DNA from: Thermodesulfovibrio sp.
GTDB taxonomy: Bacteria > Nitrospirota > Thermodesulfovibrionia > Thermodesulfovibrionales > UBA6898
Direction: 5' to 3'
Length of the DNA: 64,000 bases
NCBI GenBank assembly: GCA_013824615.1
Contig: PNOC01000016.1
Coordinates: 1-64,000, forward strand
The notes under the pieces are model-generated. The model worked only from the letters and a program-made list of their open reading frames with translations. It had not been told where the DNA came from and made no database searches. Both the position numbers and the translations under genes were made by a program. Below are positions 234 to 62,906 of this stretch, piece by piece (position 1 is the first letter of the stretch; each line of letters opens with the position of its first letter).

Positions 234-2017
<1,784 letters not shown>

Positions 2018-28319: not shown

Positions 28320-28357
28320 AGCAGAATTCTTAGAAAACAATGAAGAAGGAGGAACAA

Positions 28358-28903
28358 ATGTTTAAGACAATTCAGAGCATGAAGGTCAGGGACGAAAGAG
28401 GCTTCACCCTGATAGAGCTCCTGATCGTTGTCGCGATTATCGGTATTCTTGCAGCTATTGCAATTCCCGGTTATCTCGGCATGCAGGAGAGGTCAAGGAA
28501 GGGCGCAGTTACCAGAGGTGCTTCATCAGCAGAGCCGGATGTTCAGGCATGGCTGAATGCTGCTCAGCAGGGGCTTTCAAATGGCGCAGGAGTTCAGGGT
28601 GCGCTTATCACAGTTGATACAAACGGCGACGGTATCGTCTCAATCGACGGTTCTGATGTCAACAACTCGACACTGGGCATGAGACTTGCGGCAGCAACAA
28701 TATGTGCTAACTATGTAGCTGTAAAGCAAGCATTGCAGGGCGAAACATCTCCCTGGGCTAAGACACCCGGCTCCCTCTGGATAGCAGGACAGGCCCAATC
28801 TGGCAGAATTTCCTGCAGCCAATTCGGATCCACCAGAATTGATATCTCTGCTATGGATGCAGGGGCTCAGGTAGTCCATCAGAAATCAGTATATTCAGAC
28901 TAA
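28358..28903 (+). CDS. pilA: Type IV pilin, major-pilin candidate
   Basis: 181 residues. A 15-residue leader ends in Gly before 'FTLIELLIVVAIIGILAAIAIP', the class III/PilD substrate motif with mature Phe1 and Glu5. The preferred ATG at 28358 follows 'AAGGAGG' by 5 bases; an ATG 18 bases upstream would swallow this site. The globular part contains 'DTNGDGIVSIDGSD' (about 89-102), a dockerin/EF-hand-like calcium loop, and Cys residues near 123 and 161 that could form the D-region disulphide. A sigma-54 promoter precedes it and a terminator follows, so it can be transcribed alone at a high level. The symbol is by similarity; it could be a minor pilin or pseudopilin. Confidence 0.85.
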   Translation: MFKTIQSMKVRDERGFTLIELLIVVAIIGILAAIAIPGYLGMQERSRKGAVTRGASSAEPDVQAWLNAAQQGLSNGAGVQGALITVDTNGDGIVSIDGSDVNNSTLGMRLAAATICANYVAVKQALQGETSPWAKTPGSLWIAGQAQSGRISCSQFGSTRIDISAMDAGAQVVHQKSVYSD

Positions 28904-30768: not shown

Positions 30769-30818
30769 AAAATGAAACGAGTGAGAATGACGACGCATAA
30801 TAAATTGAGGAGGCAGAA

Positions 30819-31328
30819 ATGAACCAGAAAGGCTTTAGTCTTATTGAGCTTTTGATCACGGTTGCAATAATCGGTATACTTGCGGCGATATCCATTCCGG
30901 CATACACCGGGCAGCAGAAAAGGGCCAGCAGGATGGAGGCCTATACCAACCTTGATAACATCAGGCTTATACAGGAGCAGATACGGGCGGATACGGGAAA
31001 CTACAGTGTCGCCGCCGGGGCAGTGGCCATGGCCACGCCGGCAAATCGTGACGCTAACTATGCCTTGATACGCGCCGCGATTCCTCGTTGGCAGCCCGGA
31101 CCGTCAGCGAACATGCAGTACAGTTATGTGATCTTGAATCCCGTAGCTCCGGCAGCTCCTCAGTGTCTTGTGGCAAATCCTGCAGTTCCGTTAGTGGGCG
31201 CAAATATAACCAATGCTGCCGGTGCCTGCCCTAATCCATGTTTTGTTGCGATGGCAATTGGAGTTACTACCTCAAGAGTTAACGGAGATGTTTTTGCGGT
31301 TGATTGTAACAACAATAAAAATTACTGA
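30819..31328 (+). CDS. Second type IV pilin-like protein
   Basis: 169 residues with a five-residue leader 'MNQKG' before 'FSLIELLITVAIIGILAAISIP', so mature Phe1/Glu5 as in PilE-type pilins. The globular part is Pro/Ala/Asn-rich and has four Cys (around 128-166), enough for two disulphides. 'GGAGG' precedes the ATG. It overlaps the following GT2 gene by one base (TGATG). Differences in leader length and size from the first pilin indicate a separate function, for example minor pilin or alternative major pilin. Confidence 0.85.
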   Translation: MNQKGFSLIELLITVAIIGILAAISIPAYTGQQKRASRMEAYTNLDNIRLIQEQIRADTGNYSVAAGAVAMATPANRDANYALIRAAIPRWQPGPSANMQYSYVILNPVAPAAPQCLVANPAVPLVGANITNAAGACPNPCFVAMAIGVTTSRVNGDVFAVDCNNNKNY

Positions 31329-60431: not shown

Positions 60432-62906
60432 ATGCGATCAATGGCCAGAGTTGCAGTTGTTGTGGCCCTGCTGTTAAGCGGGATAAGTATTGTTCAGGCG
60501 TTCCCGAATTATCTCGACAACTTTAAGGCAACCTATTCGAATGTTGCCGGCACAAAACTCGATTCTTGCACGACTTGTCATAATTCGGATATGACTCGCA
60601 ACGCCTACGGACTTGACTTTGCTGCGAACGGGCATGGTTTTGGAGCGATTGCTGCTAAGGATTCTGATGGTGATACATTCACCAATTCCGCTGAAATTCA
60701 GGCCTTGACCTTTCCAGGCAATCTCGCTGACCATCCGGCAGCAGCTCCGCCGGTACCAACACCAACTCCGGACCCTACCCCAGCTCCAGAGCCGGCACCA
60801 ATCCCGGTTCCTGATCCAGTTTCGGCACCTGTGCCCGCACCAGAGCCGGGGGTTCCGGTTGGAATGCCTGCCGCAACTTCGCAGCTGAGGTTCCCATACC
60901 CTGCGCCTGTTTATCCATTGGTGGCTGACGATCCTTCTGCTGCCCAACCGGTTGGAGTCGGCCCTGTTGCAGCGGGCGGCGAATATATGAGCATTCAGGT
61001 CGGGTTTGGAACGTTTAGCAGTCCAACGGATCTTTACCTTGTATACAGCATCCCTTCTGATCCGGACAAACTTTACTTCATGAATGCCGATTACTCTGTC
61101 GCCGCATATGCTATTGAAGAAGTTGTAGCCCAGATGGAAACAAACCGATTTCCTGTTGGCGTTGAGCCATGGAAAGCCAATATTACCGGTCCGGTTAATG
61201 AAATAATCCTTAACAGTATCCCTAAAGCCGACCTTGAACCCGGTTCTTATGGCTATTATATTCTCGCGTCGCCTGCCGGATTACTGATCAATTTTTATAT
61301 ATGGGGCACGGTCATAGATATTGAGGCCCCTGCCAGCGAAAAAACAGAGAGTGAGGCAGGCGAGGGCTCTGCGGAGGAGCTACTGATTCCTGAGCCGGAC
61401 GGGCAGCTAATAATCCCCTTTGAGCCGGTCATGTACCCGGCCATCAGCCATGAGCCATCAATGGCAAAGCCGGTAAGTGTTGGGCCGGTTGCAGCAGGTG
61501 GCCCTTTCGTGAGTATCCAGGTAGGCCTCGGGAAATTTGTGAGCCCCATGGACCTCTATGTTGCCTATACTCTTCCGGCAGCACCTGACAAGCTTTATTT
61601 CATGAAGTCCGACTACTCAGTTGCTGCATATTCACTGAGTGAGATTATCCAGTCCATGTCCGGCGGAAATTTGCCTGCTTTTGTTGAGCCGTGGAAGAAG
61701 AGCAGCACCGGAGTTATTAATGAGATCATTTTGAACAATGTTTCCATAGCAGACATCAATAATGGGGCTTACGGATATTATCTCCTGGCAGCCCCGACAG
61801 GCTCCGCAGGCCGTTATTATATCTGGGGCTCGGAATTTCATGTTGAAAACGGGGCAGGGACGACAGCTGATGCCATGACGCCTGCTGTTCCGAACTCAGA
61901 CGGCGCTGTCCTGTATAACCAGAATTGTGCTGTATGCCATGGTCATCTTGCATCATCTGCCAAGCATGGCAGAACTGCGGACCAGATACAGGCAGCCATA
62001 AACACTGTAGGACATATGAAAGGTCTCAACAATCTGCTGGGACAGCAGGTTGTTGCAATTGCAGGGGCTCTCGCAACTCCGACACCGCCATCCGCTCCGA
62101 CCACGCTTGACGGTGCGGTACTTTACAGAGACTTTTGCTCAGGCTGTCATAAGGCACAGGCAATCTCGACAAAAGCAGGTGCCACGGCAACGAGGATAAC
62201 CGGGGCTATCGGCAGTGCAACGTATCCTGCCATGAATTCAGCCGGACTGAAGGCATTGAGTGCGGCACAGATCAACTCTATTGCCGGAGTGCTGGCGAAA
62301 GCTACGCCACCACCACCGACCACCCTCGACGGAACAATTCTGTACAGAGATTTCTGTGCAAGCTGCCACAACGCATTGGCAAGTTCGACAAAGGCGGGTG
62401 CCACGGCCGCAAGGATAAGCGGGGCCATCGGCAAGACAACGAATCCGGCTATGAACACGGCTGGACTGAAGGCATTGAGTGCGGCACAAATTAATGCCAT
62501 TGCCGGAGTGCTGGCAAAGGCTACGCCCCCCCCACCGCCGACCACCCTAGACGGAACGGTACTATACAGGGACTTTTGTGCAAGCTGCCACAACGCATTG
62601 GCAAGCTCGACAAAAGCGGGTGCCACGGCAACGAGGATAAGCGGGGCGATCGGCAAGACAACGAATCCGGCTATGAACACGGCTGGACTGAAGGCATTGA
62701 GTGCGGCACAGATTAATGCCATTGCCGGAGTGCTGGCATCAGTCACCCCGCCTCCCACACCTTCTGGCCATCCCTCCAACTGGCGGAGAATACACGGGGG
62801 GCAGGTCGAGAATTCAGGGACTGCTACGTGCACGTCATGTCATGGCGCGGATCTGAGAGGCAGTGCGGGTCCTTCCTGTTATACCTGCCACGGTAAACGC
62901 TGGTAA
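60432..62906 (+). CDS. Secreted modular seven-haem cytochrome c
   Basis: 824 residues with signal peptide (about 1-23). Layout: a monohaem unit with CTTCH at 46-50 and a calcium-like 'DSDGDTFTNSAE' loop; a Pro-rich linker (~100-145); two tandem ~145-residue domains of a kind I do not know (~152-297, ~325-471). Then come four small class I-like haem domains (CxxCH at 499, 569, 642, 716), each followed by a possible axial Met ('PAMN') and an 'ALSAAQIN.IAGVL' helix. A C-terminal cap has haems at 800 and 816. The last three unit domains are recent duplicates. Likely periplasmic or cell-surface electron transfer. 'CAGGAGG' precedes the ATG. Confidence 0.85.
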   Translation: MRSMARVAVVVALLLSGISIVQAFPNYLDNFKATYSNVAGTKLDSCTTCHNSDMTRNAYGLDFAANGHGFGAIAAKDSDGDTFTNSAEIQALTFPGNLADHPAAAPPVPTPTPDPTPAPEPAPIPVPDPVSAPVPAPEPGVPVGMPAATSQLRFPYPAPVYPLVADDPSAAQPVGVGPVAAGGEYMSIQVGFGTFSSPTDLYLVYSIPSDPDKLYFMNADYSVAAYAIEEVVAQMETNRFPVGVEPWKANITGPVNEIILNSIPKADLEPGSYGYYILASPAGLLINFYIWGTVIDIEAPASEKTESEAGEGSAEELLIPEPDGQLIIPFEPVMYPAISHEPSMAKPVSVGPVAAGGPFVSIQVGLGKFVSPMDLYVAYTLPAAPDKLYFMKSDYSVAAYSLSEIIQSMSGGNLPAFVEPWKKSSTGVINEIILNNVSIADINNGAYGYYLLAAPTGSAGRYYIWGSEFHVENGAGTTADAMTPAVPNSDGAVLYNQNCAVCHGHLASSAKHGRTADQIQAAINTVGHMKGLNNLLGQQVVAIAGALATPTPPSAPTTLDGAVLYRDFCSGCHKAQAISTKAGATATRITGAIGSATYPAMNSAGLKALSAAQINSIAGVLAKATPPPPTTLDGTILYRDFCASCHNALASSTKAGATAARISGAIGKTTNPAMNTAGLKALSAAQINAIAGVLAKATPPPPPTTLDGTVLYRDFCASCHNALASSTKAGATATRISGAIGKTTNPAMNTAGLKALSAAQINAIAGVLASVTPPPTPSGHPSNWRRIHGGQVENSGTATCTSCHGADLRGSAGPSCYTCHGKRW
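62100..62740 (+). repeat. Three tandem ~220-bp repeats encoding haem domains
   Basis: Units start at about 62100, 62319 and 62541 with lengths 219, 222 and ~200 bp. Units 2 and 3 differ at only a small number of positions, and unit 1 is more diverged. Each encodes 'TLDG..LYRDFC..CH' to 'IAGVLA', separated by a Pro-rich spacer whose length varies by one codon, which suggests slippage or unequal crossing-over. Confidence 0.9.

Follow-up and report, generated by a model that had tools for sequence, protein, structure and literature searches.

Within a 64,000-nucleotide stretch of DNA from a subsurface Nitrospirota bacterium (hereafter, the window), one open reading frame encodes a protein with seven CxxCH motifs, and the question that it raises is what kind of cytochrome this is and what it does for the cell. 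An earlier note on this DNA had described a string of a monohaem/Ca-loop head, a proline-rich hinge, two non-haem domains, four single-haem modules and a dihaem cap. The open frame and the HMMs built for this analysis, with which the module boundaries were set, bear out that anatomy (Table 1), including the chain of four single-haem beads (B1 to B4). An RBS-like AGGAGG lies immediately 5' of the frame, and its signal region, as judged by eye, contains no lipobox Cys. The adjoining genes (pyrE, glnE and a DUF362-like gene) give no functional context. Two type IV pilin-like genes are also found in the window, at 28334-28900 (GFTLIELLIVVAIIGILAAIAIP) and 30804-31325 (GFSLIELLITVAIIGILAAISIP).

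Table 1. Features of the seven-haem cytochrome gene, in window coordinates
Feature	Residues	Coordinates	Strand	Details and basis
Whole gene, seven-haem cytochrome	824 aa	60432..62906	+	ATG open frame; 7 CxxCH, at residues 46, 499, 569, 642, 716, 800 and 816
Putative Sec-type signal peptide	1-22	60432..60497	+	Sequence MRSMARVAVVVALLLSGISIVQA/F
HEAD	23-104	60498..60743	+	Monohaem CTTCH and 12-residue Ca loop; HMM, predicted structure
Proline-rich hinge	104-146	60744..60869	+	44% Pro; composition; length varies among relatives
NH1, non-haem beta-sandwich	147-298	60870..61325	+	HMM E 1e-59; AF2 pLDDT 89, Ig/FnIII-like
Acidic linker between NH1 and NH2	299-322			
NH2, second copy of NH domain	323-472	61398..61847	+	HMM E 8e-57
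Bead B1	haem motif 499	61890..62081	+	CAVCH, Met529; bead HMM E 3e-31
Bead B2	haem motif 569	62106..62297	+	CSGCH, Met601; bead HMM
Bead B3	haem motif 642	62325..62516	+	CASCH, Met674; bead HMM
Bead B4	haem motif 716	62547..62738	+	CASCH, Met748; bead HMM
CAP, C-terminal dihaem domain	779-824	62766..62903	+	Two more invariant His; 7 homologues

The beads belong to the broad Pfam family Cytochrome_CBB3 (PF13442; CcoP-like class I), with a score of 67 bits over all four. When a profile of 32 beads was searched against all PDB chains, however, the two leading matches were 8qj6 (E=1.3e-21) and 8qjg (2.9e-18). Both come from Geobacter PgcA, as crystal structures of its domain I and domain II, respectively; each is a monohaem domain with His/Met ligation that sits on flexible linkers (PMC11520253). 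CcoP ranked third (E 1.2e-5) and is far remoter (1e-5 vs 1e-21); the window protein is no oxidase subunit. Searched alone, the full-length 824-residue sequence matched only 8qj6 and 8qjg in the PDB. Judged by their sequences, the window beads are PgcA-type modules. Met occupies the ligand column in 123/123 collected beads, a conservation partly due to their selection at domain E ≤ 1e-10, and His and Met lie 26-28 residues apart in the window beads, as against 27 for the corresponding pairs of PgcA domains I and II (His274/Met301 and His365/Met392). The likeness to PgcA (GSU1761), published as a "tethered haem" electron carrier in Geobacter sulfurreducens, extends to the bead fold family, one haem per domain, His/Met ligation, Pro-rich tethers, a non-haem N-terminal part, a distinct C-terminal haem domain and a haem number that varies among homologues. 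Since its beads are related to PgcA, the window protein can probably be regarded as an extended form of the flexible wire already known to take electrons out of the cell. PgcA homologues have been published with 1, 3 or 6 haems (PMC5732950) and with 3-14 haems (PMC11520253), so that both the beads-on-a-string arrangement and its variable haem count were already known.

The two proteins nevertheless differ in several respects. Haem motifs recur along the window array at a pitch of 70, 73 and 74 residues, vs about 91-94 in PgcA (calculated from its ligand numbering), and the tethers are some 20 residues shorter. The inter-bead linkers comprise 8-10 residues, are 38-50% Pro and resemble KATPPPPTT, whereas those of PgcA are long (PT)x or (PA)x stretches. 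PgcA domains I and II are tuned by an acidic residue at His+7, a position occupied by Ala or Thr in the window beads and by D/E in just 7/123 beads; redox potential or pH dependence may consequently differ from those of PgcA. Where PgcA is described as having a lipoprotein N-terminus and a non-haem domain of its own (that description being what we compared), the window protein has HEAD, with its haem and Ca loop, followed by two Ig-like domains, and it ends in a dihaem CAP instead of the monohaem domain III. The earlier note knew of no named family with this order; the beads themselves do have a named relative, with published homologues, but the order of modules lies outside PgcA.

HEAD contains a perfect canonical 12-residue Ca loop, DSDGDTFTNSAE. 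In an HMM of 93 distinct heads, the C, C, H and DxDxD..N..E residues are 99-100% conserved. Its AF2 model has a pLDDT of 93, and searches by sequence profile and by fold found no PDB counterpart. His68 is invariant in the alignment of bead-bearing proteins (A1), but we dropped it as the distal haem ligand since His occupies that column in just 37/93 heads overall, and the distal ligand is uncertain. All 46 of 46 heads match the N-terminal part of NCBIfam NF041762 ("GEGP motif-containing diheme protein"), although the match is partial and far under the cut-off (65 vs 300 bits), and 32/46 match weakly to the eukaryotic Pfam family Temptin_C, again under the cut-off (21.8 vs 27 bits). Most of the 80 loci that we retrieved from a collection of 84,980 genomes (L059-L138) carry HEAD, and their hosts include Nitrospirota, Chloroflexi, Methanosarcinales, Desulfobacterota and others.

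The two NH domains are homologues (51% identical), and no Pfam or NCBIfam family and no PDB sequence match was found for the domain. Structure searches returned Ig/FnIII-like sandwiches (best Foldseek E 4e-3; best Z 6.0), and as such matches are merely generic, we read no function from the fold. An NH domain is also located at the N-terminus of a 1352-residue haem-free protein with PKD, fn3 and BACON domains, encoded elsewhere in the same genome (L039:13167-17222, contig C66), and this company favours a role for NH as a surface spacer. At the other end of the protein, H5, H13 and both CxxCH motifs of CAP are invariant across 7 homologues, which is consistent with two bis-His haems; PgcA domain III (8QK0), the solvent-exposed bis-His domain at the C-terminus of PgcA that acts on Fe(III) oxide as its reductant, was absent from the PDB matches of the CAP profile.

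Our preferred reading, to which we assign a probability of roughly 0.6, is that the gene encodes a secreted PgcA-type "haems-on-a-string" electron relay for extracellular electron transfer; this estimate is based upon sequence comparison. The beads, as His/Met-ligated c-haems, would tumble semi-independently, and electrons would pass between neighbours by brief contacts. As the linkers of about 10 residues limit the separation of neighbouring haems to less than that in PgcA, such transfer should be more frequent. Electrons would run from the array to CAP, whose two haems are probably bis-His and which may serve, as does PgcA domain III, as the exit end to a mineral, a partner cell or another cytochrome, whilst the Ca-loop HEAD and the Ig-like domains may retain the string on or close to the cell surface or matrix. 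The same genome also encodes a nonahaem lipoprotein cytochrome adjoining an MtrB/PioB-like barrel (L273:6551-9618, contig C1), a candidate outer-membrane porin-cytochrome conduit that we count in favour of the relay. Counted against it are the tethers shorter than those of PgcA, the lack of an acidic His+7, the lack of a lipobox or anchor, the uninformative gene neighbours and the uncertain distal haem ligand of HEAD.

The string could alternatively operate in the periplasm, bridging inner-membrane quinol-oxidising cytochromes and an outer-membrane porin-cytochrome conduit. The protein has a Sec signal with neither a lipobox nor an export signal, PgcA variants are able to function in the periplasm (PMC12307469), and the gene after the bead gene in three Methanoperedenaceae contigs encodes a six-haem cytochrome with a membrane segment. 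We nonetheless consider this location unlikely, given that such features as Ig-like spacers, a Ca loop and a P-rich hinge typify exported surface proteins, and that the NH domain also recurs in large proteins devoid of haem that carry PKD, Fn3 and BACON domains. Somewhat more doubtful is a redox-active adhesin or matrix protein that touches partner cells for direct interspecies electron transfer, in which the head and Ig-like domains would bind and the beads conduct. Such a role would suit the occurrence of related bead strings in methanotrophic archaea that carry out extracellular electron transfer, and the biofilm scaffold RbmA of Vibrio is among the solved structures nearest to the NH beta-sandwich (Z 6.0, weak), but a Z of about 6 is in the range of common beta-sandwich arrangements.

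The earlier note had likened the protein to a nanowire-style chain, and a rigid nanowire that polymerises like OmcS, OmcE or OmcZ would at least agree with a multihaem, secreted protein; both kinds are presumed to transfer electrons outside the cell through several haems. Those filaments, however, have closely packed bis-His haems with many CxxCH per 50 residues, a pattern that the window protein lacks, and its full-length sequence and the bead profile had no PDB sequence match to filament cytochromes. With one haem per 70-74 residues, P-rich linkers and a Met ligand in the array, the protein is closer to the tethered diffusion of PgcA than to OmcS/OmcZ packing, and we rejected the rigid nanowire on haem spacing as highly improbable.

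The bead gene has a fixed place in its lineage. It lies beside glnE and pyrE in the congeners G003 and G004 and in the more distant relative G013, exactly as in the window. The order HEAD-NH-NH-beads recurs in both congeners and in G012, which has 5 beads and a CAP. The congener contigs stop within the bead array, with the final bead and CAP at another contig end (L044, L046, L059 and L060 are all contig ends), and bead numbers in the short-read MAGs of this group are therefore likely to be underestimated. In G013, two tandem genes carry one NH each, with 1 and at least 3 beads; in G017, a bead is located between both NH domains; and G010 and G016 have split variants. Elsewhere in the family the modules are shuffled. 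The number of beads varies among relatives, from 1 to 5. Four beads is the count as assembled for the window, and collapse of further identical copies is possible.

How the array acquired its beads can be judged from the 222-bp tandem array at 62097-62738, easily the strongest tandem repeat of the window (score 907; the three others score 50-52). The last modules had been called near-identical at the DNA level, and this is so for the B3/B4 core (92% identity, dS 0.33, dN 0.014), but not for B2 (78-83% identical to B3/B4) or B1 (about 37-39% to the remaining beads). The further suggestion that the haem array is still expanding was overstated: synonymous divergence of 0.33 for B3/B4, in which some 25% of synonymous sites differ, and of about 1.0 for B2/B3, is that of old duplicates. 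The B3/B4 differences are unevenly spread, with a dS of 0.76 in the first half and 0.08 in the second (11 synonymous differences in 23 sites vs 2 in 26; Fisher p=0.003, for a split picked after inspection), a pattern that fits partial homogenisation, by gene conversion or unequal exchange, over an older duplication. B2 to B4 thus appear to be old duplicates under purifying selection (dN/dS between beads is well under 1) with one recently homogenised tract, the second halves of B3 and B4. In the bead tree, B1 clusters with each congener's first bead (a 4-row clade, 96/92) and B2 to B4 form a clade of their own (100/100). On this tree, B1 is orthologous across the genus, and B2 to B4 arose in the window lineage after its split from the sampled relatives. 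Interior beads are likewise lineage-specific in several other arrays (e.g., b6-b9 of L064). For the proposed relay, bead number would set reach and haem load. It would drift as interior beads are duplicated, lost and partly homogenised, with the edge beads staying fixed. That the array is an assembly artefact, as the earlier note had allowed, or that the gene is inactive, is scarcely credible even though two congener contigs end in the same, hard-to-assemble array: the frame is intact, dN/dS is low, orthologues are in place, and the longest exact repeat (62 bp) is resolvable by normal reads, so that assembler-invented copies are unlikely.

At E cut-offs of 1e-9 to 1e-12, close beads were found in 11/27 genomes of the window's family, 26/396 sampled Nitrospirota genomes, 14/395 genomes from the Desulfobacterota-side phylum of a Deltaproteobacteria-labelled MAG, and 9/34 Methanoperedenaceae genomes. 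Proteins of that Desulfobacterota-side phylum include PgcA-like lipoproteins with these beads; the architectures recorded comprise PgcA-like lipoproteins (L259, L261) and a 7-bead lipoprotein (L263). Archaeal proteins consist of HEAD plus 11 beads (L258:4717-8970, genome G061), HEAD plus 8 beads (L253:3013-5944, G426) and 4 beads (L254:79-2072, G435). The next gene in all three encodes a short cytochrome that has six haems and an N-terminal membrane segment and is NapC/NrfH-like by eye (Pfam gives just class III/c7), and the pair looks like a conserved two-gene unit. Mis-binning was considered as the source of the archaeal copies and is unlikely, given beads in 9 of the 34 Methanoperedenaceae genomes. 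A scan of viral contigs with beads B3 and B4, which reaches near relatives alone, found no relative.

Relative to the literature examined, three things are new: the module order (head/Ig/Ig/bead/cap), the constancy of its genomic position in a Nitrospirota lineage, and the pairing of the same head with beads in Methanoperedens. A broader proposal, which we hold only tentatively, is that the same head and PgcA-type beads make up a length-tunable electron tether that Nitrospirota share, across domains, with Methanoperedens archaea (11 and 8 beads there). Its bead copy number would be adjusted through tandem birth and loss, and in Nitrospirota the addition of Ig-like spacers and a dihaem cap would make it a relay mounted on the surface, serving minerals or partner cells. 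HEAD emerges as a widespread domain that joins a haem to a calcium loop and has no solved structure. The PgcA-type bead is a module put to wide use, in Nitrospirota, in a Desulfobacterota-side phylum and in archaea that oxidise methane anaerobically; its arrays run to as many as 11 beads, and it is mixed with other domains. The resulting natural series (1, 3, 4, 5, 7, 8 and 11 beads, with linkers of varied length) allows tether length and haem number to be tested directly for their effect on how far and how fast electrons are transferred outside the cell.
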